A stretch of DNA of 64,000 nucleotides, from positions 124,001 to 188,000 of the forward strand of contig NZ_JABBEA010000012.1 of NCBI RefSeq assembly GCF_012912005.1, given 5' to 3'. Shown here piece after piece: positions 9,404 through 53,548 of the stretch; positions within the stretch are counted from its first letter, which is position 1; every line of letters begins with the position of its first letter. The translations under genes were made by a program, and so were the position numbers. The stretch comes from Paenibacillus sp. SZ31 (GTDB taxonomy: Bacteria > Bacillota > Bacilli > Paenibacillales > Paenibacillaceae). Below the pieces are notes generated by a model. That model had not been told where the DNA came from, ran no database searches, and saw nothing but the letters and a program-made list of their open reading frames with translations.

Positions 9404-9553
9404 TTTACACGAGAACGTAGAGGACAGAAATAACCTGAAGAAGCGGAGCGTTCGCCTTTATCACCAGATTTTCTCCTTGTAAAGCCAAATATAAAAAATA
9501 TGGGAATAACAGCGATCAGAAGGTTGTTCTGTCATCGGAGTGGTAAGTGTAAA
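9404..9553 (+). repeat. Dispersed element, copy 1 (150 bp, internally shortened)
   Basis: It begins TTTACAC and ends GTGTAAA. The subterminal GGACAGAA is mirrored by TTCTGTCA near the 3' end. It shares the core AATAACAGCGATCAGAAGG and TGAAGAAGCG with copies at 20.4, 39.3 and 53.4 kb. It lacks the roughly 40-nt segment with the AAAGCTTTCTG hairpin that the other three contain. It ends 31 bp before the msrA start codon. Confidence 0.8.
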
Positions 9554-9583
9554 AGGTAGTTTCGATAAGAGGGGATGAACGGA

Positions 9584-10099
9584 ATGGAAAAAGCTACATT
9601 CGCCGGCGGATGTTTCTGGTGTATGGTTACACCGTTTGAAGAACAACCGGGCATTCATGGTATTGTATCGGGTTATGCTGGCGGTCACGTCGAGAATCCA
9701 ACATATGAGCAGGTCAAAACCGGGGAAACCGGGCATGTCGAAGTGGTTGAGATTACATTTGATTCGGATGTATTCCCCTATGAACGACTGCTGGAGCTGT
9801 ACTGGCCACAGATTGATCCGACGGATGACGGAGGACAGTTCCAGGATCGGGGGACACAGTATCGTACAGCGATCTTTGTGCATAATGAACGTCAGCGTGA
9901 GCTTGCCGAACAGTCCAAGCAGGAACTGGCAGCTAGCGGACGATTCAATCAGCCGATTGTTACGGAAATTCGGGATGCCGTCGTATTCTATCCGGCTGAA
10001 GACTATCATCAGGATTACCACAAGAAAAACGAGAAACATTATAAGGAAGACCGTGCATTATCCGGACGGGACGAATTTATAGACGAGAATTGGAAATAG
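9584..10099 (+). CDS. msrA: Peptide-methionine (S)-S-oxide reductase MsrA
   Basis: A 171-aa MsrA. The catalytic motif GGCFWC (8-13, nucleophile Cys10) lies at the N-terminus, followed by [23 protein letters not shown] and the YHQDYHKKN segment, all typical. It reduces methionine-S-sulfoxide in proteins. I chose ATG 9584 because GAGGGG lies 9 bp upstream; the ATG at 9575 directly abuts that site. No fused MsrB domain is present. No further Cys lies in the C-terminal half, so thiol recycling must use Cys13 or an external thiol. The dispersed element copy 1 ends 31 bp upstream. Confidence 0.95.
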
Positions 10100-10121
10100 G
10101 ATAATTCTATCCTACCCATGC

Positions 10122-10164
10122 AATAAGCCGGGAGAGCTCCTTATGGAACTCTCCCGGCTTATTA
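10122..10164. terminator. Bidirectional terminator between msrA and the propeller gene
   Basis: AATAAGCCGGGAGAG and GGCTTATT form a long near-perfect stem (AATAAGCCGGGAG with CTCCCGGCTTATT) around a central hairpin. A and T runs on both sides let it serve both convergent genes. Confidence 0.85.
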
Positions 10165-10177
10165 TTGAATCAAGAAT

Positions 10178-11449
10178 TTATTTTGCAGGATTGGACTTCA
10201 GTACATATTTGGACAATGTCTCATCGTTCATGAAATAGATGACATCATCCACATAAGTAGAGACACCTTCTAATGAAGGAACGGAGGCACTGGTCGTGTA
10301 GATATGCACGTCTTCCAGCGTGAGTGGATCAAGAATATATCCCATTTTGGCAAAATCAAGCTGGTACTGACCATCCTGCGTCTGATCGACATGCATCAAT
10401 GCAGGTTGTGCGTCCTTGAACGTACGCTCAGTCACTTTGCCTTTCATGGTGTACAGTTCCAGCTTCTGCCCTGTAAGGACCGTATAGCTGTTGCCAGCCG
10501 TCTGGATGTAGGCATCACCAGCAATGGCACGTCCCCAAGCGAGCTTGCCATCGGTGCCAAAGCCCATCAGTCGGTTACCCGTGCTCTCGAAATTGGCACG
10601 CATAATGATGGAACCATCATCAAGAATAGCCAGCGATTCACCGCCGCCATCTCCTTGGGTATTCGCATTAGCCGGGAATTGATAGAAGGACAGACGATTC
10701 AGCGTACGATCATAGATCTCCACTTTGGGATTCGCTGCTGGCTGCCAGAAGTTGCCTACCTTGGTTTGTTTGCTGGCATCCACTACAATTCGACCATGAT
10801 CAGCCTTAAGCACAGCACCGTTAATCGTCTTTTCGGTAATCAGCTTACCCTTCTTGTCATATAACGAGATGGCTGAGCGAACCGAACCATTCGATTGCGC
10901 GTCCTGACTTGAAGCGATCAACAACGTATCGTTATCCAGAAGAGAAATGTTCGAAGGTGAATTCACCGTTTTGACCCAGTTGGTTTTACCGGATGTATTA
11001 AATGAGTACAATTTTTTGGTTTTGTCTGAGTATTCCATATATACATAGGCAGTACCGTTGCTGGCATATATCGAATCGGAGAAGGTGGTGTAAGGACCAC
11101 TTTTCTCATGGAATATCGTATTCCACTTCAATTGTCCAGTTGTCGCATCGAATGCCTGAAGAGAGTCCAGTTGCCAGTCCAGTGTCGTTTTGCTGCTTGT
11201 TTTGGTCACAGACTGGGCAGCATGCACATATACGAGATTTTTCGAAGGCACAGCATGGATTTCCTTGATCAGGACATCTTTCTCTGTATTGGCTTCAGAC
11301 AGCATCAGGGAAGATGACGTCCACGCGGGTTTGGGCATGGATTCGGGTGAGGCAGCAGCGTAACTCGTTGTATTCATGGTGAAGAGGAGCATGCCGCTAA
11401 GAATGAGGGCAGCCCATGTTTTGGACTTGTGTTTGGTCGATGTATGCAA
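10178..11449 (-). CDS. Secreted beta-propeller (PQQ-like) protein
   Basis: About 423 aa with an N-terminal signal peptide (Lys-rich start, hydrophobic WAALILSGMLLFTMNTTS, then cleavage near AAA-SP). The mature protein has repeated 'ydkkGkl' blades, such as LQAFDATTGQLKWN, LYSFNTSGKTNWVK, SLYDKKGKLITEK, LMGFGTDGKLAWGR and LYTMKGKVTERT. These are PQQ/quinoprotein-like propeller repeats, often ligand-binding rather than enzymatic. I place the start at the TTG at 11449, preceded by AAAGGTGG at 8 bp; a TTG ten codons earlier would give 433 aa. It has no lipobox or wall anchor, so it is probably secreted. It stands alone, with no clue to partner or substrate. Confidence 0.72.
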   Translation of the reverse strand: MHTSTKHKSKTWAALILSGMLLFTMNTTSYAAASPESMPKPAWTSSSLMLSEANTEKDVLIKEIHAVPSKNLVYVHAAQSVTKTSSKTTLDWQLDSLQAFDATTGQLKWNTIFHEKSGPYTTFSDSIYASNGTAYVYMEYSDKTKKLYSFNTSGKTNWVKTVNSPSNISLLDNDTLLIASSQDAQSNGSVRSAISLYDKKGKLITEKTINGAVLKADHGRIVVDASKQTKVGNFWQPAANPKVEIYDRTLNRLSFYQFPANANTQGDGGGESLAILDDGSIIMRANFESTGNRLMGFGTDGKLAWGRAIAGDAYIQTAGNSYTVLTGQKLELYTMKGKVTERTFKDAQPALMHVDQTQDGQYQLDFAKMGYILDPLTLEDVHIYTTSASVPSLEGVSTYVDDVIYFMNDETLSKYVLKSNPAK

Positions 11450-11709
11450 GTGATAAACCACCTTTCTTCTTCGGTTCAAAATAGAACCGATTGTTGAATT
11501 TTACCATTGATGTCATATTGAATTCAACCGAACGCACTGTAACCTTTTATCATTCATATATCAAATTATCTTTGTTTGATGAATTATAACGGTTACAGGG
11601 ATTTCATCTTCTTTCGATGAAGGTGGAAGTCTGATATATTTAGTGCGGTGATAAGCCATATCTGCGTAAGAGGTTGGATAGAACATAGGAATGAACAAGG
11701 AGAAGAGCT

Positions 11710-12306
11710 ATGAATTGGAGTGAAAATGTGACCCTATGGGTCATTGGATGTATCATCGTATTGTTGCTGCTGGCCTGGATTATTCGGCGTGTTATCGGGC
11801 GCGGGCAACGGATCCGAAGTGAAGCCAATCCTCGTAAAATTACGATAAAGGACATCGACAAGATGGAGGATGGTTCGGAGTTTGAATTATATCTCTATCA
11901 TTTATTCGAGCAACTTGGGTACGATGAGGTTCATAAGACGACGAGTAGCAGGGACTTTGGGGCTGATCTTGTGTTTGTCGATAGACTCGGCAGACGAAGT
12001 GTGATACAAGCGAAGCGATATGGCGCGAATCATCCTGTAGGATTGAGTGCAGTGCAGGAGATCTATACATCGATGCGTTATTATGAAGCCGACCGGTCCA
12101 TTGTATTGACGTCCGCCCGTTACACCGAAGCCTGTCGGACACTTGCAGCAGTCAATGGAGTGAAGCTGCTGGACCGGGAAGACCTGATGGAATTAATCCT
12201 GTTATTCAAAGCCAGAAGAGTGGAAGAAGCGCTGGAACTGATCGAAGAAGATGATCACGAACCGATCGAGACGTGGCAGTCCCGGCGAAAGCGGCAATCC
12301 CGCTAA
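11710..12306 (+). CDS. Membrane-anchored Mrr-like (PD-(D/E)XK) restriction endonuclease-fold protein
   Basis: A 198-aa protein. Residues about 8-30 form one membrane helix (LWVIGCIIVLLLLAWIIRRVIG). Then follows an Mrr_cat-type nuclease fold: GSEFELYLYHLFEQLGY, then TSSRDFGADLVFVDRLGRR with the active-site Asp, and VIQAKRY with the Gln-x-Lys. This D...QxK arrangement is the Mrr version of PD-(D/E)XK. VRM-like 'LSAVQEIYTSMRYYEADRSIVLTS' completes the core. Mrr proteins cut modified DNA, but membrane-tethered single-domain forms are common in Firmicutes and their role is unclear. AAGGAG lies 6-11 bp before the ATG. No methylase or other restriction gene is nearby. Confidence 0.85.
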   Translation: MNWSENVTLWVIGCIIVLLLLAWIIRRVIGRGQRIRSEANPRKITIKDIDKMEDGSEFELYLYHLFEQLGYDEVHKTTSSRDFGADLVFVDRLGRRSVIQAKRYGANHPVGLSAVQEIYTSMRYYEADRSIVLTSARYTEACRTLAAVNGVKLLDREDLMELILLFKARRVEEALELIEEDDHEPIETWQSRRKRQSR

Positions 12307-12426
12307 GTACTCGGATGAAAGCCTTTAAAATGATGTATATGCCCATTCCAGTAGGAAGCACCTTCACTTGCGTAGCTGCACATGATATATTGAGTGCATA
12401 TCAACCAAAGGAGTGTGTAATCCATT

Positions 12427-12654
12427 ATGGCACGTACACAAACACAAAAAGCATTACGCAAAGCAGAGCGGTCAGGTAAGTGGTGCTCGGAACAGAGCCG
12501 GAGAGTCAACGGAGATTATAGTGCGTTATCCCAGCATGTACGCCTCATGCCTACGAAGCAGGAAAAATTGCAAAAGGTCAAACACAAGAAGCAGATCATC
12601 CAGGATGGTGGTGCTTCTTTTTATTTTGTCCAATGTGTGCGAAAAAGTGCATAA
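12427..12654 (+). CDS. Small basic hypothetical protein, 75 aa
   Basis: A Lys/Arg-rich protein beginning MARTQTQKALRKAERSGKW and continuing LMPTKQEKLQKVKHKKQII. It has the look of small cytosolic basic proteins of Bacillales whose N-terminus reads M-A-[KR]-T-x-x-Q-[KR]-x-x-R-K; I cannot name a function. AAAGGAG stands 12 bp before the ATG, slightly long. It lies alone between the Mrr-like gene and the YcaQ-like gene. The last 15 residues look less conserved in character. Confidence 0.6.
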   Translation: MARTQTQKALRKAERSGKWCSEQSRRVNGDYSALSQHVRLMPTKQEKLQKVKHKKQIIQDGGASFYFVQCVRKSA

Positions 12655-12731
12655 TGTCCTATAAACCTTCCTTTGGTTGGGGAAGCTTCTGGTTGATCAT
12701 GAATATAAGTTAGAAGGGACGAGCCATTTCG

Positions 12732-13979
12732 ATGACAACACTTCTACGTATAAATAAAGCAGCTGTTCGACGTCTTTTGCTGCACACGCAAGGTTTACTG
12801 GCACGTTGGCCAGCGGAAGCGAGACACTCCGGGCCGGATCAGGTCATAGAGCTGATCCGCTCACTTGGCTGTGTGCAGATCGATCCTGTGGCTGCTGTAA
12901 CCGGAAATCAGCATTTGGTGCTGGGTGCCCGTGATCCGGGATATACTGCTGATAGCTTAAATACGCTGCTCAGCGATCACAAGGTATTTGAGTATTTTGC
13001 CAATGCGGCATGTGTGATTCCAATCGAAGATTATACTCTCTTTGAACCTGTGCGTGCTCGGTTAAGGGAGCGTCTGGCTCCGTCTTTGCAAGGTCTGGAG
13101 AAAACAGTGCAGCATGTGTTACAGCGACTGAAGGAGGAAGGACCCCTACCTTCAAGAGCTTTCCGTGCTGTTGAACGGGTAAGTGGTTATTGGGACAGTG
13201 CGGATGTACCGAAGACCAAGGATACAACACTTGCTCTGAATTTACTTTTGGACTCCGCTGTGATTCGTGTGGTGGCGAGGCAGGGAAATGAACGTTATTT
13301 TCATATGACCGAATCCGAATTGCAGCAACAGGGGCTTCCGATGAAAGAAGACATGGATGTGTTTGCCCAGAGACAGGCTCTGCTGGATAAATACATTCAT
13401 GCATATCGGGTTGTAGATGCCCGTGATCCCCGTCTGGGTTGGCTGAAATCTACAGCGGCTGAACGTCGCGCCGATATTGCTGCACGTGTGTCAGATGGGC
13501 GAATGATCCCACTTAAGGTGGAGGATGTGGCAACGCCTTATTATATTCGTGCTGAAGATGAGGATTTGCTTCTGCATATGGAAAAGGAAGAGCCACACTA
13601 TGATGCGTCAGGTCCTGTGCGTTTCTTGCCGCCGCTGGATAACCTGTTATGGAGAAGAGAACGTATTGTCGATTTATTTGATTTTCATTATAAATGGGAG
13701 ATTTACACGCCAGAGGTGAAAAGAACCTACGGTTATTATGCCATGCCTATTCTTCATGGTGATCGGTTGATTGGACGTATGGACCCACGACTTGATCGCA
13801 AAACAGGAGTACTCACCGTTCGTTTGTTATCGATGGAAGAGACAGCTCCACCTGTGGAGGAATGGATCACGGATTTTCGGGAGGGGCTTCAATTCTTTGC
13901 GTCCATGCATGGAGCGCGTTCTATCTCTATTGAGAAGACGGTACCGAAAGAGCTGAAAAAGCTGCTTAAGTCGATTTGA
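12732..13979 (+). CDS. YcaQ/HTH_42-family protein (winged-helix DNA glycosylase-like)
   Basis: A 415-aa protein of the HTH_42 family. The N-terminus has the conserved segment IRSLGCVQIDPVAAV with Q49-I50-D51, matching the catalytic QxD motif of E. coli YcaQ and Streptomyces AlkX-type enzymes, which unhook interstrand crosslinks and excise bulky alkylated bases. FEYFANAACVIPIEDY and the C-terminal 'LPPLDNLLWRRERIVDLFDFHYKWEIYTP...GYYAMPILHGDRLIGRMDPRLDRK' are family hallmarks. GAAGGGA lies about 12 bp before the ATG. Its C-terminal neighbour is convergent. The catalytic assignment rests on the QxD motif; some family members lack activity. Confidence 0.85.
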   Translation: MTTLLRINKAAVRRLLLHTQGLLARWPAEARHSGPDQVIELIRSLGCVQIDPVAAVTGNQHLVLGARDPGYTADSLNTLLSDHKVFEYFANAACVIPIEDYTLFEPVRARLRERLAPSLQGLEKTVQHVLQRLKEEGPLPSRAFRAVERVSGYWDSADVPKTKDTTLALNLLLDSAVIRVVARQGNERYFHMTESELQQQGLPMKEDMDVFAQRQALLDKYIHAYRVVDARDPRLGWLKSTAAERRADIAARVSDGRMIPLKVEDVATPYYIRAEDEDLLLHMEKEEPHYDASGPVRFLPPLDNLLWRRERIVDLFDFHYKWEIYTPEVKRTYGYYAMPILHGDRLIGRMDPRLDRKTGVLTVRLLSMEETAPPVEEWITDFREGLQFFASMHGARSISIEKTVPKELKKLLKSI

Positions 13980-14049
13980 TAAGGGGATACACGAAAGAAT
14001 GTATGGACATGGGAAATTGGATTTCATGAACAAATCTAAAAAGGAAAAA

Positions 14050-14078
14050 ACAGGGGGAGCCAGATGGCTCCCCCTTCA
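14050..14078. terminator. Bidirectional terminator between the YcaQ-like gene and fabV
   Basis: GGGGGAGCCA pairs perfectly with TGGCTCCCCC over 10 bp across 2 nt (14053-14074). An A run precedes it, giving a T run for the minus-strand fabV, and it lies between the two stop codons. Confidence 0.85.
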
Positions 14079-14090
14079 TTGATTTTAAAA

Positions 14091-15284
14091 TCATATCACC
14101 AGATGAGGCATTTCAACGTTCGGATCAACATCTGCTTCATAATCCACACCATCGGTTTCAAAACCAAACAGCTGGAAGAATTCGCGACGGTAACCTTCCA
14201 GATCGGACAGATCGTAGATGTTCTCTGTGGTCAACTCATTCCAGAGCTTCGCCACTTCTTCCTGAACGTCAGCTCTCATCTCCCAATCGTCAATGCGAAT
14301 ACGGCCTTCGGCATCGGTTGGAACTTCTCCTCCCGTATACAAGCGATCAGCGAACAGACGTTGCAATTGCTCGATGCATCCTTCATGCAAGCCTTTTTCT
14401 TTCATGACTTTGTACAATGCTGAGATGTACAGCGGCACGACTGGAATCGCAGAACTGGATTGAGTCACCAGCGCCTTGGCTACAGTTAAGTATGCACGTC
14501 CACCTTTTGCACTTAGACGATCATTCAGCTTGTGTGCAGTCGCTTCCAGGTGATTCTTGGCCTGACCGATGGAACCATCACGATAAATGGCATGCGTAAG
14601 TTCAGGACCGATGTAGGAGAAAGCGATTGTTGTTGCATCATCAGCGAGCACGCCACCTTGTTGCAGGGCATCCATCCACAGTTCCCAATCGTCTCCGCCC
14701 ATAACGGTTACCGTCTGACGGATTTCCTCTTCGTTTGCCGGCTCCAGAGTAACCGAGCTGATTTCGCCTGTGTGGAAGTTTACCGTTTTGTTCGTGTAGG
14801 ATTGTCCGATAGGCTTCAACACAGAGTTGAATACTTCACCGGTGTTCGGCTCGGTACGACGTGCTGAGGCTACGCTGTATACAACCAAATCCACTTGACC
14901 GAGTTCACTGCGAATCAGTTCAACGGCTTTTTCTCGTGTTTCGTTTGCAAATGCATCACCTGTAACGCTGTACGATTTCAGGCCTGCTTCCTCAGCGGCT
15001 TTTTCGAATGCAGCGGAGTTGTACCATCCTGCAGAAGCTGTACGTTTCTCTGTAGAACTACTTGGACGATAAATGCCGACCGTATTCGCTCCCGCTCCAA
15101 AAGCAGAGACAACGCGTGACGCCAGTCCGTATCCGGTGGAAGCACCGATGACGAGCACATTACGAGGGCCTTTCAGCTCCGGCTGGGATTTCACATAGTC
15201 AATCTGTTCCTGCACTTGCGCAGCGCAACCTACAGGATGGGAAGTGGTACAAATAAAACCACGTGTTCTTGGTTTAATAATCAT
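14091..15284 (-). CDS. fabV: Enoyl-[acyl-carrier-protein] reductase FabV
   Basis: A 397-aa trans-2-enoyl reductase of the FabV/TER family. The N-terminus MIIKPRTRGFICTTSHPVGC is diagnostic. The NADH-binding Rossmann segment VLVIGASTGYGLASR (43-57) follows. The catalytic Tyr and Lys occur in the family spacing of eight residues (Y234 and K243, in AIYRDGSIGQAK). FabV catalyses the last step of fatty-acid elongation and is intrinsically insensitive to triclosan. GAAAGGATG stands 6-9 bp before the ATG. The leader contains a hairpin (15319-15337) and an upstream palindrome (15375-15391). Whether FabI or FabL also exists elsewhere cannot be seen. Confidence 0.94.
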   Translation of the reverse strand: MIIKPRTRGFICTTSHPVGCAAQVQEQIDYVKSQPELKGPRNVLVIGASTGYGLASRVVSAFGAGANTVGIYRPSSSTEKRTASAGWYNSAAFEKAAEEAGLKSYSVTGDAFANETREKAVELIRSELGQVDLVVYSVASARRTEPNTGEVFNSVLKPIGQSYTNKTVNFHTGEISSVTLEPANEEEIRQTVTVMGGDDWELWMDALQQGGVLADDATTIAFSYIGPELTHAIYRDGSIGQAKNHLEATAHKLNDRLSAKGGRAYLTVAKALVTQSSSAIPVVPLYISALYKVMKEKGLHEGCIEQLQRLFADRLYTGGEVPTDAEGRIRIDDWEMRADVQEEVAKLWNELTTENIYDLSDLEGYRREFFQLFGFETDGVDYEADVDPNVEMPHLVI

Positions 15285-15318
15285 TTATTTGCATCCTTTC
15301 ATATTCAGCTCATGTTTC

Positions 15319-15337
15319 AGCATTTCGATAAAATGCT
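15319..15337 (-). other. Hairpin in the fabV leader
   Basis: AGCATTT and AAATGCT form a 7-bp stem about 35 nt before the fabV start, with an unrelated AAGGAGGT just upstream of it. It may affect translation; function not known. Confidence 0.35.
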
Positions 15338-15374
15338 CGTATACATACCTCCTTATTGTAAAACAATTACCTCG

Positions 15375-15391
15375 GAAACGGAAACCGTTTC
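15375..15391. promoter_or_regulatory. Candidate operator between fabV and the HTH-TPR regulator
   Basis: GAAACGG-AAA-CCGTTTC is a perfect 7-bp inverted repeat in the 203-bp divergent intergenic region. Its position suits a repressor of fabV or of the regulator. It does not match the FapR consensus I know. Confidence 0.4.
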
Positions 15392-15487
15392 GTTTGATTT
15401 CATCGGAAGGGTAGCGTTATATCTCTAATTTTGCGATGATGTGCATAGAATGTACTCGCTCGTTAGGATAGAAAGGACAGGGATAGC

Positions 15488-16768
15488 ATGCTGAAAGAAC
15501 GCATTGAACTGCTTAGCAAAAGAAAACAGATCTCCCGTAAAGACCTTGTGGAAGGTCTGGTCACGCAGGCTCATTTTGCAAATATCCTGGCGGATCGTTA
15601 TCCGCTCCCTGAGGACTTGGCAGAAGCCATCGCTGGGCGTCTTGGGGTAACTCCTTCCTATATTACAGCGGCAGCGGCTAAGGACGAGGAAACACTCGAA
15701 CGGGCAGAGGTTATTTTCGAACAAATGTCAGTTCCAGCGTCGGCGATATCAGAAGATACGGTGCATGCGCTGGCAGATCGGGATGACACGCTGACCGTAG
15801 AGCTGACAACGGCCTTGATGAAGGCGGTCTATTATCAGCAATTAAACGAAGCAACGGCTCATGAGTATATACATACGTCTTACCTCAATTTTTACCTGGA
15901 GAAATACGGTCGTCCAGACGATATTGATCTGCCGCGTCCGTTAGTCAAGGCACTCTTGTTCTATAAAATACAATATTATCGCTCCAAAATGGCATTTGTG
16001 GATGTGTTAACTCATGCAACCAGGCTCAGTGAGCTGGCGCTTCCTGGCAGTGAATTTTGGCTGTCTGTGCAAAACATCAAGATGGAGGCTTACATCCAGG
16101 TCAAACAGTATGAAGAGGCAAAACAGGTATTCGAGCTTACAATGCGTCATGTCTATGATCAGCGGATGTTCCATCGGTTGTCCGGGTTATATGTAGCCTA
16201 TAGTGGGTATTGTTTCGCGATGGGGCTGGTTCAGGAGGCACTTTCGGCATTGACCATGGCGGAAGCGAACCTCGTGTATGCCGGTAACCAGGGTGATCTG
16301 GTGACGGCAATTTCCAACAATCGGATTGTCATGCTGACGATGACAGGTGAACTGGATCAGGCACAGGCGGAGATTGAACGATTCGAGTCGCTGTTGCAGC
16401 AGGAACCGGAAGAAACACAGCAGGCCATGCAGCCGCTCATCGGTGTGTATCGATGCGAAGTAGCTCTGGCACGAAAGAACTGGGGCGTGCTTGCGCAGAG
16501 TGTAGATCAACTTTTGAAATGTGCAACAACACAGGACCAGCAGATGAGCGCAACCTTCTATCAGAGCCATCTGGCTCTTGCACATGGAGATCGCGAGGTT
16601 TTCATGGAGCGGGCACTTGCGTGTCTGCCTTATTTCGAATCCGCCCAGCATGTCATGCGGCTTGAACCGTTATATGAAGGAATGGCTGTAGTGTCTGAGG
16701 ATCAGCGGAAATACAAGGAAGCTGCGATGTATTATCGGAAGCTGGTATATCTGTTACGCAAAAAATAG
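15488..16768 (+). CDS. HTH-TPR transcriptional regulator (RRNPP-like)
   Basis: A 426-aa protein. Residues 1-55 are a divergent XRE-type helix-turn-helix (LKERIELLSKRKQISRKDLVEGLVTQAHFANIL). The remainder is all-helical with tetratricopeptide-like repeats (for example QNIKMEAYIQVKQYEEAKQVFELTM, VAYSGYCFAMGLVQEALSALTMAEA, NNRIVMLTMTGELDQAQAEIERFE, and a final EDQRKYKEAAMYYRKLVYL). This is the plan of peptide-sensing RRNPP regulators. A cognate signal-peptide gene usually lies just downstream, but I found no convincing one in the 277 bp that follow. AAGGACAGGG precedes the ATG. It is divergent from fabV, which is a possible target. Confidence 0.75.
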   Translation: MLKERIELLSKRKQISRKDLVEGLVTQAHFANILADRYPLPEDLAEAIAGRLGVTPSYITAAAAKDEETLERAEVIFEQMSVPASAISEDTVHALADRDDTLTVELTTALMKAVYYQQLNEATAHEYIHTSYLNFYLEKYGRPDDIDLPRPLVKALLFYKIQYYRSKMAFVDVLTHATRLSELALPGSEFWLSVQNIKMEAYIQVKQYEEAKQVFELTMRHVYDQRMFHRLSGLYVAYSGYCFAMGLVQEALSALTMAEANLVYAGNQGDLVTAISNNRIVMLTMTGELDQAQAEIERFESLLQQEPEETQQAMQPLIGVYRCEVALARKNWGVLAQSVDQLLKCATTQDQQMSATFYQSHLALAHGDREVFMERALACLPYFESAQHVMRLEPLYEGMAVVSEDQRKYKEAAMYYRKLVYLLRKK

Positions 16769-16860
16769 AGTGGAAATCGGCTTGGAAGAGCCTGATTATG
16801 GCATGATTTGGTGCATTGCCAACCTACTTTCCACAAAATATGGCTGCCAATCGTGAAATG

Positions 16861-20286: not shown

Positions 20287-20393
20287 GCCTTAATTATACC
20301 ATGACAATAGGTGTCAGGGTATGGGTGGTACACTGGTGTAAAAGTCTTACCAAGACATTTTGACTCAGTCTTATAATTTGTTCTTCATTTATT

Positions 20394-20577
20394 GCGGAGT
20401 AGTGAAGGGGACGATATCGATTCTGAAGAAACGAAGTGTTCGCTAAAAGCTTTCTGTAAGAAAGCTACTTCGGAAGCAAACGCTATCATCGGATTTTTCC
20501 ATTTAAAAATGGGAATAAAAGAAATCCGAGGATAACAGCGATCAGAAGAACGATTCGTGACCGGAACGGCTACTCGC
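20394..20577 (+). repeat. Dispersed element, copy 2 (184 bp, divergent ends)
   Basis: It shares the core with the other copies: CTGAAGAAACGAAGTGTTCGC, AAAAGCTTTCTG...AAAGCT, and GGATAACAGCGATCAGAAG. Its termini differ from the TTTACAC type, yet remain inverted to each other: GCGGAGTAG at the left and CTACTCGC at the right, with GGGACGATATCG mirrored by CGATTCGTGACC. It lies in the 345-bp gap between the divergent WYL regulator and the GH1 gene and ends 55 bp before the latter. Confidence 0.78.
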
Positions 20578-20601
20578 ATAATATCAAGCACTTTATATTG
20601 A

Positions 20602-22065
<1,464 letters not shown>

Positions 22066-39020: not shown

Positions 39021-39299
39021 TTGACGATTAACAAAAGAATAATGAATCTATCAGCCTGGCTTGCGGTATTAGCCATCATATGTATTCCTGGAACTTTACA
39101 TACTGAAGATGGACCGTTCCGAACAGAGTATGGTTTCCCGCTCCGATTCTTTACGGATTATCATTATGCTAATTCTGAGGGAACAATCTGGTTTGTATCT
39201 GGCATCCATTTAAACGTACTTCTATATTTGTTCAATGTCCTGTTTATTTATGCAGGTATTCATGTAATCTTGTATATAAAAAAGAAATTAACTAAATAA
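39021..39299 (+). CDS. Small hypothetical membrane protein, 92 aa
   Basis: It has two predicted membrane helices (about 9-25, LSAWLAVLAIICIPGTL, and about 64-88, HLNVLLYLFNVLFIYAGIHVILYI), with an acidic, aromatic-rich loop between (GPFRTEYGFPLRFFTDYHYA). GGGGGAG lies 5 bp before the TTG start at 39021; an ATG seven codons on has no ribosome site. It follows the frameshifted gene after 12 bp. Not recognised. Confidence 0.6.
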   Translation: MTINKRIMNLSAWLAVLAIICIPGTLHTEDGPFRTEYGFPLRFFTDYHYANSEGTIWFVSGIHLNVLLYLFNVLFIYAGIHVILYIKKKLTK

Positions 39300-39312
39300 A
39301 TTCAACAGAATA

Positions 39313-39499
39313 TTTACACGAAACGGAGAGGACAGAAAAAAACTGAAGAAGCGAAGTGTTCGCCTAAAAGCTTTCTGAAAGAAAGCTGCATCGGAAGCAT
39401 AGGCTTATCCCCGGAGTTTCCCATTATAAAATGAATCAAAAAAATCTGGGGATAACAGCGATCGGAAGATTGTTCTGTCATCGTAGTGACCAGTGTAAA
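39313..39499 (+). repeat. Dispersed element, copy 3 (187 bp, full form)
   Basis: The most complete copy. It begins TTTACACGAAACGG and ends CAGTGTAAA, with subterminal GGACAGAA mirrored by TTCTGTCA. Internal hairpins are AGCTTTCTGAAAGAAAGCT and ATCCCCGGA / TCTGGGGAT. The core GGATAACAGCGATCGGAAG is shared with the other copies. It ends 79 bp before the DinB-family gene. Confidence 0.85.
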
Positions 39500-39577
39500 C
39501 ATTCGGATGATACTTTTGCCAATACAGAATTGATCAAAGCTCTCTGAAAAACATAGCCGATAAAGGGGAATATACCA

Positions 39578-45089: not shown

Positions 45090-45120
45090 AATTTCCATGC
45101 AATCGAGTCGAAACCTGAAA

Positions 45121-46562: not shown

Positions 46563-46592
46563 TTGACTAAATCTGTTGAAACCTGATAAATT
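46563..46592 (+). promoter_or_regulatory. Promoter of the fructan operon
   Basis: TTGACT (46563-46568), 18-bp spacer, TAAATT (46587-46592). It lies about 85 bp before the first permease start. The remaining part of the 432-bp gap (46244-46675) is AT-rich and holds no gene. Confidence 0.5.
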
Positions 46593-46620
46593 GTAAATTA
46601 TTAAATAGGCAATTGTAAAT
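46589..46620. promoter_or_regulatory. Candidate regulator sites: direct repeat AATTGTAAAT spaced 22 bp
   Basis: AATTGTAAAT occurs at 46589-46598 and again at 46611-46620, exactly two helical turns apart and overlapping the -10 and transcription start region. A near copy (AAATGTAAAT, opposite strand, 46351-46360) lies nearer the LacI-type gene. The placement fits repressor binding. Confidence 0.4.
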
Positions 46621-46675
46621 ATTGAAAGCCCTTACTGAAAACAATTGTCAACTTCAAGAATGAAACGGGGGTAGC

Positions 46676-47644
46676 ATGTTGGATAACATAGCAGACAGCA
46701 AAAAGGGCAGAGGAAGGGTACTAAAAGTGAGGACGACCAGCGGTCATAAGTTGCAGCAACTCAAAAAAAATTACTTTTTATATATGTTGCTTGCACCAGC
46801 CTTAATCTTGACTCTGATCTTCAAGTACATCCCAATGTACGGAGCCATCATTGCGTTTAAAGATTTCAGTCCGATCAAAGGCATCATGGGCAGTGATTGG
46901 GTAGGACTGAAGCATTTCGAGAAATTTATAGCTTCACCCAATTTCGATATCATTTTAATGAATACGCTTAAACTCAGCTTTTGGGGATTGATATTCAGTT
47001 TCCCGGTGCCCATTTTGCTGGCACTCATGCTGAATCAGGTACGCAAAGCTGGCGTTAAGAAAAATATTCAATTGTTCCTGTACGCACCCAATTTCATATC
47101 CGTTGTTGTCGTTGTGGGAATGCTGTTTATCTTTCTCTCACCGACAGGGCCAATTAATCAATTAGCCACTTGGATTACAGGTCAGCCAATTATGTTCATG
47201 TCTGAACCTGAATATTTCCGCTGGATCTACATTTTGTCCGATATCTGGACCGGAGCGGGCTGGGCTTCCATCATATACGTCGCGGCGTTGGCCAATGTTG
47301 ATCCAGAGCTTCACAATGCGGCCAATCTGGATGGAGCCAACCTCCTTCAACGTATTCGGCACATCGACCTTCCAACCATTCGACCGATTATGGCTATCGT
47401 CTTTATCCTGGCAGCTGGTGGCATTATGTCCATTGGATTTGAGAAGGCCTATCTGATGCAGACGTCCATGAACCTGCCTTCCTCTGAGATCATTGCCACG
47501 TATGTCTACAAGGTGGGGCTGCAATCGGGAGATTACGCTTATTCAGCGGCCGTGGGATTGTTCAACTCGGTTATTAATGTGATTCTGCTGGTGACGGTGA
47601 ATCTGATCGTGAAGAAATTGAATGAAGGCGAAGGCCTCTACTAG
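46676..47644 (+). CDS. ABC transporter permease, LplB type
   Basis: A 322-aa permease with six predicted membrane helices. LLAPALILTLIFKYIPMYGAIIAFKDFSPIKGIMGSDWVG is the typical LplB/YtcP-group start, and the EAA-like loop reads NAANLDGANLLQRIRHIDLP (about 222-241). It forms the membrane channel of a carbohydrate importer with the next gene. GGGGGT precedes the ATG. First gene of a five-gene operon with short gaps (16, 58, 22 and 28 bp). The ATPase is not encoded here, so a shared MsmX-type ATPase is likely. Confidence 0.9.
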   Translation: MLDNIADSKKGRGRVLKVRTTSGHKLQQLKKNYFLYMLLAPALILTLIFKYIPMYGAIIAFKDFSPIKGIMGSDWVGLKHFEKFIASPNFDIILMNTLKLSFWGLIFSFPVPILLALMLNQVRKAGVKKNIQLFLYAPNFISVVVVVGMLFIFLSPTGPINQLATWITGQPIMFMSEPEYFRWIYILSDIWTGAGWASIIYVAALANVDPELHNAANLDGANLLQRIRHIDLPTIRPIMAIVFILAAGGIMSIGFEKAYLMQTSMNLPSSEIIATYVYKVGLQSGDYAYSAAVGLFNSVINVILLVTVNLIVKKLNEGEGLY

Positions 47645-47660
47645 GAAAGGAGTATTATCC

Positions 47661-48542
47661 ATGGTTGTTAAACATACGGGAATGGATCGATTGATTCTCA
47701 CACTCAATGCCATCTTTCTCACCTGTGCTGTACTGGTTGTCGTTGTTCCCTTGATTTACATTGTTATCGCTTCATTCATGGACCCCACAGTGCTATTGAA
47801 CCGTGGACTATCCTTCAATGTATCCGACTGGAGTCTAGATGGTTATCAGATGATATTATCCAATCCAGCCATGATCCGAGGGTTTGCGAATGCGGTATTG
47901 TACTCGGTTTCCTTTGCACTGATTACCGTGACCGTTTCCATATTTGCTGGCTATGCATTGTCAGATGATAGGCTTGCGGGACGCGGATTTTTCATGATTA
48001 TCTTTATCATTACGATGTTCTTCGGCGGGGGATTAATCCCTACGTATCTACTCATACGTAATCTCGGCATGCTCGATACGGTGTGGGCGATCATCATTCC
48101 TGGAGCCGTCAACGTCTGGAATATCATTCTCTCCAGAACCTTTTTCAAAGGAGTCCCTCGGGAACTGAAAGAAGCCGCGAATGTGGATGGCGCCTCCGAG
48201 ATGAAGATTTTCTTCCAGATCGTCATTCCGTTGTCCAAACCCATCATTTTTGTACTCGCACTCTATGCGTTCGTTGGGCAATGGAATTCCTATTTTGATG
48301 CAATGATCTATCTGGATAATCCGAAATTACATCCGTTACAGCTCGTTCTGCGTTCGATTTTGATTCAGAATCAGGCTGCTCCGGGCATGATCAGTGATCA
48401 GCTTGCCATGGCAGAACTGAAACGGCTCTCCGAGATGATTAAATACTCAGCGATTGTCATTTCGAGTCTGCCACTCATCATTATGTACCCGTTCTTCCAG
48501 AAGTATTTCGAAAAAGGTGTCATGGTTGGTTCCCTCAAATAG
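47661..48542 (+). CDS. ABC transporter permease, LplC/YtcP type
   Basis: A 293-aa permease with six predicted helices, partner of the preceding LplB-type protein. The start at 47661 follows AAAGGAG; the longer frame overlaps the previous gene. The EAA loop is KEAANVDGASEMKIFFQIVIPLSKP (about 172-196), which contacts the ATPase. Features such as GGGLIPTYLLIRNLGMLDTVWAIIIPGAVNVWN are typical of the family. It serves oligosaccharide or glycoside import. Confidence 0.9.
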   Translation: MVVKHTGMDRLILTLNAIFLTCAVLVVVVPLIYIVIASFMDPTVLLNRGLSFNVSDWSLDGYQMILSNPAMIRGFANAVLYSVSFALITVTVSIFAGYALSDDRLAGRGFFMIIFIITMFFGGGLIPTYLLIRNLGMLDTVWAIIIPGAVNVWNIILSRTFFKGVPRELKEAANVDGASEMKIFFQIVIPLSKPIIFVLALYAFVGQWNSYFDAMIYLDNPKLHPLQLVLRSILIQNQAAPGMISDQLAMAELKRLSEMIKYSAIVISSLPLIIMYPFFQKYFEKGVMVGSLK

Positions 48543-48600
48543 TGAACAGCCTGCAATACAGTAAGTTCGTTCCAATCCAACTCACATGGAGGTCATGATT

Positions 48601-50208
48601 ATGAAAAAAGTGAAGAAGTCCAGAAAAGCCGTTACAACGGCGTCCATTTCCATGTTATCTGCGATGCTCTTTCTAACCGCCTGCGGCGGGGGTGGAGGCG
48701 GCGCAGCAAGTGAGGCGCAATCACCAGATGGCAAAGTGACATTGAATTTTATAACACAGAGCTCTCCGCTGGCTCCCGCTGATCCGAACGACAAGCTGAT
48801 TAACAAGCGACTCGAAGAGAAAACCAATGTGCATATCAACTGGAAGAACTATACGAGTGATGTGTTTGCGGAAAAAAGAAATCTGGCGGTAGCCAGCGGT
48901 GATTTGCCGGATGCCATTTTTGATTCAGGTTATGGGGATTATGATCTCCTGAAACTGGCGAAGGACGGGGCGATCATTCCACTCGAAGACATGATTGAAC
49001 AGTACATGCCCAATCTGCAAAAGGTGCTGGAGGAGGCTCCCGAATACAAGAGTATGATCACGGCTCCAGACGGACATATATACTCCTTCCCGTGGATTGA
49101 AGAACTCGGCAGTGGCAAACAACGCATTCAGTCGGTGGATAACTTGCCCTGGATTAATGTGGAATGGCTGAACAAGCTCGGACTGGAGATGCCGAAGACA
49201 ACCGAGGAATTAAAAGAAGTGCTGATCGCGTTCAAAACCCAAGACCCGAACGGCAATGGCAAGGCTGACGAAATTCCGCTTTCTTTCATTAACAAGCCGG
49301 GCGGAGAAGATCTGACATTTCTCTTTGCGGCATTTGGACTCGGGGAGAACTGGGATCATACCGTGGTAACGGATGAAGGAAAAGTGGTCTTTACAGCAGC
49401 TGATACGGGTTACAAGGAAGCGGTTAAATACATTCATGAACTGGTTCAGGAAGGTCTCGTGGATGTGGAATCGTATCAACAGGATTGGAACACATATCTT
49501 GCGAAAGGCAAGGATGACAAGTACGGCATGTACTTCACTTGGGATAAGGCCAACATTACAGGCATGAATGATACGTATGATGTTCTTCCTCCGGTTGCTG
49601 GACCTAGCGGAGAGGTCAATGTCACAAGAACGAATGGCATCGGTCTTGATCGTGGTCGCATGGTCATTACCAGCAGCAATAAAAACCTGGAATCCACAGC
49701 GAAGTGGGTTGACCAATTGTACGATCCACTCCAATCTGTACAGAACAACTGGGGCACTTACGGAGATGAGAGTCAGCAAAATATTTTTGAATTCGATGAA
49801 GCCAAGGGCATGCTGAAGCATCTTCCACTGGAAGGTTCTGCACCTGTGGAACTCAGACAAAAGACCAGTATTGCCGGACCATTGGCCATTCTCGACAGTT
49901 ACTATGACAAATACACAACCAAACCGGAAGATGCAGCTTGGCGCATGGAACTTCTTGATAAGGTTATGGTTCCGCATATGAAAGCGGAGAACGTGTATCC
50001 AAGTGTGTTCTTCTCTATTGATGAACTGGATCGATTGTCCACGATTGAGACGGATCTATTCGCCTACGTGCTGCGTCTGCGTACGGAATGGTATCAGAAC
50101 GGGAAAGTCGATCAGGAATGGGATGCTTATCTGAAAGAGCTGGATCGTCTTGGGTTGCAAGAATGGCTTCAGATTAAACAAGCGGGATATGACCGTAATA
50201 CTAAATAA
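48601..50208 (+). CDS. Extracellular sugar-binding lipoprotein, LplA type
   Basis: A 535-aa solute-binding protein of family 1. A lipoprotein signal (MKKVKKSRKA...AMLFLTAC) puts the lipid-modified residue at Cys28, followed by an unusual run of six Gly. NFITQSSPLAPADPNDKLINKRLEEKTN and the SGDLPDAIFDSGYGDYDLLKLAKDGAIIPLEDMIE stretch are typical of the LplA/YtcQ group. GGAGGT precedes ATG 48601. With the two permeases it makes an importer, and the GH32 and fructokinase genes downstream indicate fructose-containing oligosaccharides as substrate. Confidence 0.9.
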   Translation: MKKVKKSRKAVTTASISMLSAMLFLTACGGGGGGAASEAQSPDGKVTLNFITQSSPLAPADPNDKLINKRLEEKTNVHINWKNYTSDVFAEKRNLAVASGDLPDAIFDSGYGDYDLLKLAKDGAIIPLEDMIEQYMPNLQKVLEEAPEYKSMITAPDGHIYSFPWIEELGSGKQRIQSVDNLPWINVEWLNKLGLEMPKTTEELKEVLIAFKTQDPNGNGKADEIPLSFINKPGGEDLTFLFAAFGLGENWDHTVVTDEGKVVFTAADTGYKEAVKYIHELVQEGLVDVESYQQDWNTYLAKGKDDKYGMYFTWDKANITGMNDTYDVLPPVAGPSGEVNVTRTNGIGLDRGRMVITSSNKNLESTAKWVDQLYDPLQSVQNNWGTYGDESQQNIFEFDEAKGMLKHLPLEGSAPVELRQKTSIAGPLAILDSYYDKYTTKPEDAAWRMELLDKVMVPHMKAENVYPSVFFSIDELDRLSTIETDLFAYVLRLRTEWYQNGKVDQEWDAYLKELDRLGLQEWLQIKQAGYDRNTK

Positions 50209-50230
50209 GATAAATGAGGGAGAGAACATC

Positions 50231-51703
50231 ATGTCAACCATACTTAATCAGGATCACAGAGGCGTCTATCATTTTACACCAAAAGAAAATTGGATCAACG
50301 ATCCAAATGGCATGGTATTTTTCAAAGGTGAGTATCACTTGTTCTATCAGCATCACCCACATGGAACCACATGGGGCCCCATGCATTGGGGCCATGCAGT
50401 GAGCAGGGACCTGATCTCCTGGGAGGAACTTCCGTTAGCCTTGTTCCCAGATGAGAATGGCACTATATTCTCCGGAAGCGCCATAGTGGATTGGAATAAT
50501 ACGACCGGATTCTTTGAGGATGAGCCAGGATTGGTTGCTATTTTCACCCACCATCTTGAAGTTAAAGACCAGGATGCCATACAAACCCAGAGTCTCGCGT
50601 ATAGCAAAGACAACGGCAGAACTTGGACTAAATACGAGGGTAATCCGGTATTAAAGCATGAGTCTTTTGTCGATTTCCGTGATCCGAAAGTGTTCTGGCA
50701 TGAGCAGACCAAGGAATGGGTTATGGTTATCGCTTGTGGTCAAACGGTATGTCTGTATCGTTCTCCAAATCTGAAGGATTGGACGATTGGTAGTGAATTC
50801 GGCGCCGGGATTGGTTCACACGATGGCGTGTGGGAATGCCCGGACCTGTTCCCCCTTCCAGTGGATGGAGATTCAGGGCAGGAGAAATGGGTGATGCTCG
50901 TTAGCATCGGTGCAGATCCTGCTTTTATTGAAGGCTCCAGAACACAATATTTTACCGGAGATTTTGATGGAACTACATTTGTCCCAGACGAGGCATCTCA
51001 TACGGTTCGCTGGATTGATTATGGTCGGGATAACTACGCAGGAGTTAGTTGGTCTGACGTTCCTGAGGAAGATGGAAGACGCCTCATTATCGGCTGGATG
51101 AGCAACTGGATGTACGCCAACCAGACGCCAACCAATAATTACCGTGGAGCAATGACCATTGCCCGGGAGTTGACACTGGAGACAAGAGCGGGAGAAGTTA
51201 TATTGATTCAACGTCCTGCACGTGAACTTGAGCAAGCCCGTACGCCAGTATTGTCCCAACAGGATGCTTCGATTCAGCAAGTGAGTGAACAGTTGAACGC
51301 TTTGCAACTAGTGAACTATGAGATCCGTGCAGAGTGGACTCCGAATCAGTCGTTCCATTTTGCACTAAGAAGCGGCGCAGATCACGAGACGGTCGTTGGT
51401 GTAGACTCGATCCGAAGTGAAGTGTACGTTGATCGTAGTCGATCGGGCATCGTCGATTTTCATGAACATTTCCTGGGCCGCCATACAGCTGAGTTAAAAG
51501 AGGTGAATGGAAATCAAAGTTTGCGTATCTTTGTAGATCATTCATCTGTGGAGGTATTTGCAAATGATGGTCAGGCCGTTATTACGGATCTGATCTATCC
51601 GGATGTGGATTGCCAAGGCATCTCTGTTCATGCCGAAAATACCGATCTGCTATTCTCTTCACTTCATATCTATGAGATCTCACCGACCAAAGCTAAAGAT
51701 TAA
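50231..51703 (+). CDS. Glycoside hydrolase family 32 (sucrose/levan/fructan hydrolase)
   Basis: A 490-aa intracellular GH32 enzyme without signal peptide. The nucleophile is Asp24 in WINDPNG, the transition-state Asp151 in FRDPKVF, and the acid/base Glu202 in WECPDLF. A C-terminal beta-sandwich with HSSVEVFANDGQAVITDLIYP completes the fold. It should release fructose from sucrose or fructo-oligosaccharides. The absence of a PTS and the ABC importer suggest an unphosphorylated substrate. GGGAGAG lies 7 bp before the ATG. The fructokinase gene follows 28 bp after its stop. Confidence 0.94.
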   Translation: MSTILNQDHRGVYHFTPKENWINDPNGMVFFKGEYHLFYQHHPHGTTWGPMHWGHAVSRDLISWEELPLALFPDENGTIFSGSAIVDWNNTTGFFEDEPGLVAIFTHHLEVKDQDAIQTQSLAYSKDNGRTWTKYEGNPVLKHESFVDFRDPKVFWHEQTKEWVMVIACGQTVCLYRSPNLKDWTIGSEFGAGIGSHDGVWECPDLFPLPVDGDSGQEKWVMLVSIGADPAFIEGSRTQYFTGDFDGTTFVPDEASHTVRWIDYGRDNYAGVSWSDVPEEDGRRLIIGWMSNWMYANQTPTNNYRGAMTIARELTLETRAGEVILIQRPARELEQARTPVLSQQDASIQQVSEQLNALQLVNYEIRAEWTPNQSFHFALRSGADHETVVGVDSIRSEVYVDRSRSGIVDFHEHFLGRHTAELKEVNGNQSLRIFVDHSSVEVFANDGQAVITDLIYPDVDCQGISVHAENTDLLFSSLHIYEISPTKAKD

Positions 51704-51731
51704 TAGTAATGAAGGAAAGGAGTCCAGAACG

Positions 51732-52631
51732 ATGCGTATTGGAGCCATAGAAGCGGGCGGAACAAAGTTTGTATGTGGTGTAGGAAATGAGCATGGACAG
51801 ATTGAAGATCGGATCAGCTTTCCAACAGAACATCCGGAGACAACTCTTGCCAAGGTGATCGACTATTTCAGGGATAAAGATGTGGAAGCGATGGGTATCG
51901 GCTCCTTTGGTCCGATTGATCTGCAACCGGATAGTCCCACCTATGGTTATATTACAACCACACCTAAGCCTGGGTGGGGAAACTGTGATGTGGTTGGAAC
52001 TTTGAAGCATGAATTTTCGGTTCCTTTCGGATGGGATACGGATGTGAATGCTGCCGCGCTCGGTGAAGTGACGTGGGGAGCGGCGCTAGGGTTGGATAAC
52101 TGTGTATATTACACGATTGGCACAGGCGTTGGTGTCGGACTTGTGGCAGGGGGCAAACGAGTACACGGATTGTTACATCCCGAGGGTGGACATATTCGTA
52201 CAAGACGCCATCCGGACGATCACTTTGCCGGGTTATGTCCGTATCATGGCGATTGCCTGGAGGGGATGGCTGCAGGACCAGCTGTTGAAGCACGTTGGCA
52301 AATCCCTGGCAGTGAACTGCCGGCAGATCATCCTGCGTGGGAGATCGAATCCTTTTACATTGCGGAGTCAATTACAACTACTATCTTGCTTCATTCGCCA
52401 CAGAAGATCATCTTGGGCGGTGGTGTGATGCAGCAAGATCATCTGTTTCCTATGATCCGGAAGCAGGTAGTGCGGAATCTCAATGGTTATGTGAATGCAG
52501 CTCCGATCACGCAACATATCGACCAGTACATTGTCCAGCCTGGATTGGGCCAGCATGCAGGCCTGTGTGGTGCACTCGCTTTGGGTCTGGAAGCATTGCA
52601 ACATGCAGCACAAGCTTCGCATACTTCATAG
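51732..52631 (+). CDS. ROK-family fructokinase
   Basis: A 299-aa ROK sugar kinase closest to Bacillus YdhR/GmuE fructokinases. The phosphate loop is EAGGTKF (7-13); YYTIGTGVGVGLVAGG and PEGGHIRTRRHPDDHFAGLCPYHGDCLEGMAAGPAVEARW contain the ROK signature and the zinc ligands (His, two Cys, His). IILGGGVMQQDHLFP is the second ATP-binding region. It should phosphorylate the fructose released by GH32 to fructose-6-phosphate. AAAGGAG lies before the ATG. It ends the operon at a large terminator. Confidence 0.93.
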   Translation: MRIGAIEAGGTKFVCGVGNEHGQIEDRISFPTEHPETTLAKVIDYFRDKDVEAMGIGSFGPIDLQPDSPTYGYITTTPKPGWGNCDVVGTLKHEFSVPFGWDTDVNAAALGEVTWGAALGLDNCVYYTIGTGVGVGLVAGGKRVHGLLHPEGGHIRTRRHPDDHFAGLCPYHGDCLEGMAAGPAVEARWQIPGSELPADHPAWEIESFYIAESITTTILLHSPQKIILGGGVMQQDHLFPMIRKQVVRNLNGYVNAAPITQHIDQYIVQPGLGQHAGLCGALALGLEALQHAAQASHTS

Positions 52632-52648
52632 TTTTCTGAAATAATATA

Positions 52649-52722
52649 TAGCCCAAAAGGGACGGTTGCGGGTTCGCTTATTTAGTTAAGCTAGACTGCA
52701 CTGTCCTTTTTTGGGCTTTTTT
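52649..52722 (+). terminator. Terminator of the fructan operon
   Basis: AGCCCAAAAGGGAC pairs with GTCCTTTTTTGGGCT over a long arm around a large internal loop (including GCGGGTTCGC), followed by six T. The remaining 160 bp to the next gene hold nothing I can name. Confidence 0.82.
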
Positions 52723-52882
52723 ATTTCTTTGAGGAGTTAAATATGTTTGAAAAATATAGTGTGTTCTAAAATCCGATGTTGCTCAAGTGAGCTGCCAAAG
52801 GTATGATTTTTAGTGTCCTATCCCTATCGTCCGATATGACATTCATAATTTAACGTGTCTCCAATGGAAAGGAATTCAACGA

Positions 52883-53323
52883 ATGAACCATATAACAATA
52901 CGTCAAGCTGTACAGGCAGACCAGGAACAACTGGCCGATTTGCGAGCGTTGGTACTATACGATGATCTAAGCAGGCTGGGAAGGTACGATGATGTGAAAG
53001 TGCGTGAACGTTTCCGCAATACATTCGATCCTGCTCACACACGTATTATTGAAGTGGAGGGTTCAATGGTAGGTTGTGTAGCGTTGAAGCCCAAGTCTGA
53101 GGCATATCTATTGGAACATTTCTACATACATCCCGATTATCAGGGCCAGAGAATAGGAACTCAGGTATTGAATATGCTGTTGGAACAGGATGAAATTCAG
53201 GGAAAACAGGTTATTTTAAATGTATTGCAGGGAAGTCCTGCTCGGCGATTGTATGAACGATTTGGATTTGTGTTGGATAGTGAAGATGAGGTCGATGTGT
53301 TTATGTCGGTCCAAGTGCAGTAA
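52883..53323 (+). CDS. GNAT-family N-acetyltransferase
   Basis: A 146-aa acetyltransferase. Motif A is EHFYIHPDYQGQRIGTQVLNMLL (about 71-93) with the Q-x-x-R-I-G-T acetyl-CoA loop; the C-terminal half has GSPARRLYERFGF. AAAGGA lies 9 bp before the ATG. It stands alone, followed by the dispersed element copy 4. Substrate unknown. Confidence 0.87.
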   Translation: MNHITIRQAVQADQEQLADLRALVLYDDLSRLGRYDDVKVRERFRNTFDPAHTRIIEVEGSMVGCVALKPKSEAYLLEHFYIHPDYQGQRIGTQVLNMLLEQDEIQGKQVILNVLQGSPARRLYERFGFVLDSEDEVDVFMSVQVQ

Positions 53324-53358
53324 TTTTTACTGTACATCTATATAAGTTGAACTATTCT

Positions 53359-53548
53359 TTTACACAGAAACGGAGAGGGCAGAAAAAACCTGGAAAAGTG
53401 AAGCGTTCGCCTGAGAGCTTTCTGAAAGAGAGCTACGTCGTAAGCATAGGCTTATCAGCGGATTTTACCCTTGAGAAAAGGGAATCAAAAAAATCTGGGG
53501 ATAACAGCGATTAGAAGGTTGTTCTGTCATTGGAGTGTTCAGTGTAAA
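53359..53548 (+). repeat. Dispersed element, copy 4 (190 bp, full form)
   Basis: It begins TTTACACAGAAACGG and ends AGTGTAAA. It carries AGCTTTCTGAAAGAGAGCT and the core GGGGATAACAGCGATTAGAAGG, then TTGTTCTGTCA. It lies in the 360-bp gap between the GNAT and MFS genes and ends 136 bp before the MFS start. Confidence 0.85.

Follow-up and report, generated by a model that had tools for sequence, protein, structure and literature searches.

Four short, similar and structured repeats lie in a 64,000-nucleotide (nt) stretch of the Paenibacillus sp. SZ31 genome (contig NZ_JABBEA010000012.1, positions 124,001 to 188,000 of the forward strand; hereafter the window), each of them ahead of a different gene. 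Is such a family a mobile repeat, or is it a cis-acting RNA? The first-pass annotation of the window had posed these as alternatives. Our comparisons suggest that both descriptions apply at once, since inverted repeats, a TA duplication and empty sites are found together with a covarying core and sense placement; it is the choice between them that falls away. The account that we favor, and hold to be probable by a modest degree on the sequence evidence, is that of a non-autonomous mobile element whose passenger is a conserved structured RNA.

All four copies were found on the + strand at the positions first claimed for them, and in alignment their similarity spans most of each length. The proposed check with a covariance model (CM) gave the same answer, as a model trained without the window copies still recovers all four. 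Their distances to the genes behind them, 31, 55, 79 and 136 nt, agree with starts at 9584, 20632, 39578 and 53684, with further in-frame ATGs upstream of the first two (9575 and 20614). Pfam bears out the predicted msrA, GH1, DinB and MFS neighbors (PMSR, GH1, DinB and MFS), and the proteins downstream of the window copies accordingly carry four kinds of domain. Copies 3 and 4 are close to each other in the alignment, copy 1 is without one internal hairpin, and copy 2 is divergent.

The four copies belong to a much larger population, and a chance motif is ruled out: GGATAACAGYGATYNGAAGG occurs 145 times in the 6.48-Mb SZ31 genome when 3 mismatches are allowed (4 times in the reversed control) and 100 times when 1 is allowed (0 times in the control). 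The copies read from this genome comprise 40 loci, the best 40 of 187 BLAST candidates to copy 3, in a genome that holds at least 100 copies. A search with nhmmer returned 265 hits, 206 after the treatment of overlaps and 196 above 25 bits, of which 192 lie outside the window record. Within the family, the strict motif was recovered from 68 of 295 genomes, representing 8 of 19 genera; across the order Paenibacillales, the CM detected the core in 146 of 198 genomes and 26 of 43 genera. In 30 genomes picked because they had already matched, the CM found 1 to 100 copies per genome; CM copy numbers are lower bounds, with at most 17, 117 or 8 candidates scored per genome, depending on the search. 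Class-wide, 38 of 398 genomes match when 8 candidates are scored per genome, all of them in this order; the 20 unmatched genomes that were listed all lie outside the order, and 340 were not listed. An exact 32-base pattern was present in at least 114 stretches of GTDB contigs, a sampling that over-represents conserved copies, and the records listed are all titled Paenibacillus.

Several observations on the settings of individual copies stand beside this distribution. Tandem copies about 205-225 nt apart were seen in two genomes (L247:1408-1536 and 1633-1763; L330:1568-1697 and 1773-1902). A phage or plasmid origin was considered and set aside: copy 3 matches none of 50,697 phage records and a single plasmid record, there in the extra hairpin only. 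In IMG/VR, 15 stretches (L363-L377) on 14 contigs hold copies and are possibly prophages or host flanks.

Ends, architecture and mobility

The motifs TTTACAC and GTGTAAA, initially taken as the ends of the element, proved to be internal, as similarity extends past both into longer inverted repeats. The true ends are inverted repeats of 28-31 bp (CTATATAARTTGAACTAA...) that lie outside these motifs, with CTATATAA...TTATATAG as their outermost sequences. The left arm reads CTATATAA[AG]TTGAACTAA-n-ATTTACAC and the right arm GTGTAAATATTCTTTAGTTCAA[CT]TTATATAG. Copies fall into two size classes of about 193 and 232 bp. The family shows the features of a miniature inverted-repeat transposable element (MITE): it is short, it has terminal inverted repeats, and there is no transposase gene inside the copies. 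An internal hairpin module varies between genomes at one and the same site, both at 13 sites with mixed architectures and at the msrA site; the architecture is ambiguous in 49 of the 192 copies, and one or more of those assigned to the short class, L006 among them, do carry the hairpin. The outer arms covary across 78 sites (55 matched changes against 22.7 after shuffling), a result that we set aside as RNA evidence because base pairing and joint inheritance fit it equally well.

Orthologous loci were then compared as filled and empty sites, using 11, 11 and 7 loci of 30 fetched each for the msrA, GH1 and MFS sites and 16 of 23 for the DinB region. At the msrA site the element is present in 6 of 11 aligned genomes and absent in 5, where the left repeat of copy 1 faces an empty orthologous site. 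At the GH1 site it is present in 5 of 11 genomes and absent in 6. At the MFS site SZ31 has the full copy, whereas two of its six aligned relatives retain remnants and four have nothing. Upstream of DinB, 9 of 16 loci hold a copy; L339 has it complete, and L345 and L347 present the empty site. Set against each other, the empty sequence ...AACTAGAACGTAAA... and the filled sequence ...AACTA[element]TAGAACGTAAA... resolve one insertion exactly, as a TA duplication at CTAG. From this insertion it is 24 nt to the start codon of a GNAT gene, and the insertion falls within the last codons of the gene that precedes it (frame judged by eye). The empty sites in relatives and the target-site duplication for which the first-pass annotation had advised looking were both found, the latter exact at this one site. 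No duplication longer than TA was seen in 79 two-armed copies of the window family. Presence and absence between species, as read from these alignments, show that the element is mobile. For a DDE_3 (PF13358, IS630-type) transposase, the search of the SZ31 genome, which covered this type and this genome, gave no match (7 first-look candidates).

A covarying core joined to different ends

Between the arms lies a core of three helices, P1 (GGACAGAAAUAACCU / AGGUUGUUCUGUC), P2 (GCGAA / UUCGC) and P3 (UUAUCCCCGGAUUU / AAAUCUGGGGAUAA), with the joints CUGAAGAA and CAGCGAUCGGA. An alignment of 33 sequences (30 Paenibacillus copies and 3 from two genomes of another genus) has 93.5% of its cells paired and two-sided changes in 15 of 30 pairs; its covariation score of 0.151 was reached by none of the 500 shuffles (mean 0.084) and by no slid version (at most 0.092). 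Among 89 matches from other genera, aligned by fitting to the model and inclusive of weak second-strand hits, two-sided changes occur in 27 of 30 pairs, and the score reaches 0.456 against 0.142 shuffled and at most 0.094 slid. Read by eye across the order, the core is approximately aGCGGAGnGG-P1-CUGGAGAAGCGnAGCGnUCGCCUUUG-P3-CAACAGCGAUCGGAAG-P1'-CGCAGC. G-U is more numerous than A-C in all four alignments, a preference that favors the + strand as RNA. The two-sided changes show that the core has an RNA-like fold kept by compensatory change across the order. Rfam 15 gave 0 matches in the window at the gathering score and, at relaxed limits, chance-level matches only for one window copy and four other loci. 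A supposed likeness of GGGGATAACAG to 23S rRNA was dropped, the order-wide reading being CAACAG.

Outside the window family, the core is found with other ends. In G355, a genome from a different family within the order, the ends of the six copies aligned resemble GAGGCCACTGAAAAAC; judged by eye, their direct repeats are exact in two cases (8 and 9 bp), carry one difference in three and are unclear in one. In G118, four copies lie in a longer repeat, and the two compared fully share 1968 bp at 99.95% identity. This repeat encodes a 532-amino-acid transposase (DUF772, DDE_Tnp_1_6), and we take the transposase and its insertion sequence (IS) to be of the IS1182 type; no transposase of that type was found inside copies of the window family. 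These comparisons show one core on mobile ends that differ from genus to genus, an IS1182-type IS being one of the carriers. The IS in G118 was observed at L333:1721-3319 and L335; a further copy there has lost most of the transposase to an internal deletion. In some copies from other genera (L329, L330 and L292), a small hairpin together with TTAGGAGG or TTAAGGAG was seen on the downstream side of the element, and copies of this kind may bring their own ribosome-binding site.

Placement relative to genes and competing explanations

Of 126 independent sites (one copy each), placement was scored at 112, the other 14, at locus edges, having been set aside; genes were called with a simple custom caller and the result cross-checked with a caller-free test. 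Between co-directed genes, 62 sites run along the gene direction and 17 oppose it (p 4e-7). A start codon lies within 60 nt of the right end, that is, in sense, at 49 of the 112 sites, and within 60 nt of the left end, in antisense, at 3. The caller-free test returned 35 sense versus 3 antisense copies within 60 nt and, for 60 copies of other genera, 10 versus 1 within 100 nt, several copies per site being possible in the latter set. Sense copies are placed next to Shine-Dalgarno sequences. Sense copies that follow a stop codon by 60 nt or less number 31, and 15 of these were also counted before a start; copies solely behind genes are unbiased (16 sense versus 15 antisense), and the contrast with 49:3 is significant (Fisher p 9e-6). 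Terminator-like sites at a folding free energy (dG) of -6 or lower occur in 43 of 111 cases in antisense and 4 of 111 in sense.

Since the resolved target is palindromic and the copies behind genes show no bias, we read the orientation bias as selection acting on leader copies. Operon gaps are tight, and one insertion has a start codon only 24 nt behind it, an arrangement that points to co-transcription of leader copies with the gene behind them; from the orientation bias we infer a leader RNA that is tolerated or useful in the sense orientation only. The course of events that we favor would begin with a transposase that acts on the 28-31 bp inverted repeats and, in this genus, inserts the element into TA-rich gaps. 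In a leader or an operon gap, the sense transcript would fold into a closed domain, with P1-P3 shut by the paired inverted repeats, which would let transcription pass and leave the ribosome-binding site just behind it free. Insertions in antisense would harm expression, perhaps by termination, and be lost, and the core would persist because its leader-compatible fold, or some further RNA activity, lets the element live in leaders. Taken one step further, and offered tentatively, the core might be an order-wide "leader passport" RNA that makes sense insertions transparent to transcription and translation, through either antitermination or self-insulation, and that has been acquired again and again by unrelated transposons.

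Several observations weigh against the account of a mobile element with a structured RNA passenger that is compatible with leaders. As many as 30 of the 112 sites are near no gene end, and the core of the G118 IS is antisense to the transposase gene, just before its start. Most of the terminator-like sites in antisense are weak (at dG of -9 or lower the counts are 6 versus 1), and T-richness may explain them. The TA duplication is exact at just one site, and among 78 two-armed copies 45 have TA in the two inferred positions. The strand preference also thins out once constitutive G-U is subtracted: the G-U/A-C counts are then 82/42 in the divergent set (significant; first 60 of the 89 rows), weak and short of significance in two others (32/20, 59/42) and not in favor of G-U in the last (10/12). 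A single pair, which is perhaps misaligned, contributes half of all A-C cells in the divergent set, and for copy 1 the folding energy favors neither strand (-36.3 and -36.0 kcal/mol).

The alternative that survives best is a plain selfish MITE, whose fold would be a by-product of DNA inverted repeats, whose core would have no RNA role and whose orientation would reflect only the loss of polar insertions. Mobility and inverted repeats, the very different downstream genes, the unbiased copies behind genes and the equal folding of the two strands all sit well with it. A functionless passenger would, however, be expected to decay, whereas here compensatory changes are seen in 27 of 30 pairs, and in 26 genera the core persists with its unpaired joints though the ends differ; we regard this explanation as doubtful.

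A dedicated cis-regulatory RNA, riboswitch-like or exerting general control of translation or mRNA stability, that transposition has dispersed and that governs the genes lying behind it appears unlikely. One observation in its favor comes from G346 and G349, where a single detected copy (L336:3503-3625 and L300:1501-1624, respectively) is kept in the same place between open reading frames of equal length; in G346 the flanking genes encode ROK and alpha-L-fucosidase proteins, the core is in sense, and we consider this copy a candidate domesticated leader. The sense placement next to Shine-Dalgarno sequences and the conserved joints point the same way. No common pathway links the genes behind, however, as ten downstream proteins that were scanned hold nine different kinds of domain, with one protein having none, and this diversity, together with the four kinds in the window, gives no support to a riboswitch or leader for one pathway. 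The gain and loss of sites between species and the lack of an Rfam match also speak against such regulation.

Directed insertion, whereby the element would enter leaders one way only, for example coupled to transcription or via RNA, is very improbable: the bias is indeed already present in copies with intact arms (25 versus 6, against 37 versus 11 in the others) and at unshared sites (34 versus 12), but shared sites are somewhat more biased (28 versus 5), the copies solely behind genes, which are probably transcribed too, are unbiased, and the resolved CTAG target is palindromic.

The window copies and comparable repeats

The limits of the four copies and their cores are collected in Table 1. 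The initial description of each copy as lying just upstream of a gene fits the distances, with qualifications in the case of copies 3 and 4. SZ31, L338 and L346 have lost most of the GNAT gene that lay in between, and it is through this deletion that copy 3 now stands directly before DinB. A deletion from the right arm of the element into the 3' end of the GNAT gene (window positions 39485-39577), with a common breakpoint region, was observed in L337, L338 and L346 relative to L339 and L342. The outer right arm is missing from copies 1 and 3. Copy 4 begins about 15 nt past the stop codon of another GNAT gene, on whose 3' side it lies, and is separated from the MFS gene by an inverted repeat (53570-53602) that the terminator scan did not score as a terminator; this copy may belong to the 3' end of the upstream GNAT gene.

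Table 1. Positions of the four copies and their structured cores in the window
Feature	Position	Strand	Basis or remark
Copy 1, left inverted repeat CTATATAAATTGGACTAAACATTTACAC	9383..9410	+	inferred TA duplication 9384-9385; element proper from 9386
Copy 1, upstream of msrA; short architecture, without outer right arm	9386..9553	+	alignment, filled/empty comparison
Copy 1, structured core (P1-P3)	9415..9539	+	CM 122.7 bits, E 1.9e-31
Copy 2, divergent subfamily without window-family ends, upstream of GH1 gene	20355..20611	+	approximate limits from filled versus empty sites (5 filled, 6 empty of 11)
Copy 2, structured core and extra hairpin	20402..20565	+	CM 72.0 bits, E 2.8e-17
Copy 3, at CTAG/TA target; right arm deleted into GNAT gene; 79 nt before DinB gene	39295..39499	+	locus comparison
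Copy 3, structured core and extra hairpin	39323..39485	+	CM 97.8 bits
Copy 4, two arms, between GNAT gene and MFS gene	53341..53567	+	inferred TA duplications 53339-53340 and 53568-53569
Copy 4, structured core and extra hairpin	53370..53534	+	CM 91.2 bits

Known repeats of the same general kind provide a frame for these features. RUP of Streptococcus pneumoniae makes a TA duplication. It is described, in the available part of the source, as a small repeat with inverted repeats similar to those found on an IS630-type element (PMC3049150). The window family is likewise a small repeat with inverted repeats, and with a TA duplication at one site; RUP differs in measuring 107 bp, as against about 193 or 232 bp here, and the SZ31 genome is without a DDE_3 match. 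BOX, from the same species, is a short modular repeat with a predicted RNA fold that is transcribed as operon extensions, is proposed to move with the help of an IS through similar inverted repeats, and affects downstream genes, according to the same excerpted account (PMC3049150). It resembles the present family in being a short interspersed repeat with an RNA-like fold and inverted repeats, and differs in its boxA, boxB and boxC modules and its occurrence in streptococci, the comparison being one of descriptions and not of sequences (PMC3049150).

The bcr1-bcr18 repeats of the Bacillus cereus group, as far as the excerpts describe them, are dispersed intergenic repeats of 100-400 bp, some of them MITE-like and some with conserved RNA structure, often in untranslated regions or operon gaps (PMC3446304, PMC6542083). 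Dispersed intergenic occurrence, MITE-like build, RNA structure and operon-gap placement are thus shared, whereas bcr mobility is tied to a TTTAT motif and the repeats are specific to the B. cereus group, in contrast to the TA at CTAG and the order-wide core found here. The suggestion that the window copies might be bcr1 repeats is not supported, given the TA duplication at the resolved site and the TTTAT motif reported for bcr (PMC6542083, in its available portion). One RNA core on unrelated mobile ends is a feature of the present family that the accessible BOX and bcr descriptions do not contain (PMC3049150, PMC3446304, PMC6542083). The G118 IS resembles the window family in holding the core, just before its transposase gene, and differs from it in its ends, being one of several carriers. 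By description, then, we place the window family with the MITEs and structured repeats, nearest in kind to BOX, RUP and bcr as these are outlined in the excerpts. We recognized no description of the family in the open-licence PMC literature, which does not show its absence from print; as excerpted, PMC3012674 mentions P. vortex repeats in general terms and PMC2267715 does not name Paenibacillus.

The family represents an apparently structured RNA, absent from Rfam 15, that most of the genomes sampled from a large bacterial order contain, in up to 100 or more copies each. Its many natural insertions, which come with empty-site controls, bear on how a mobile element becomes compatible with leaders, and they raise the question of whether selection preserves the RNA passenger and not the ends that move it. 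Should the RNA prove to act on the genes that follow, current annotation would be missing a regulatory layer of considerable size.

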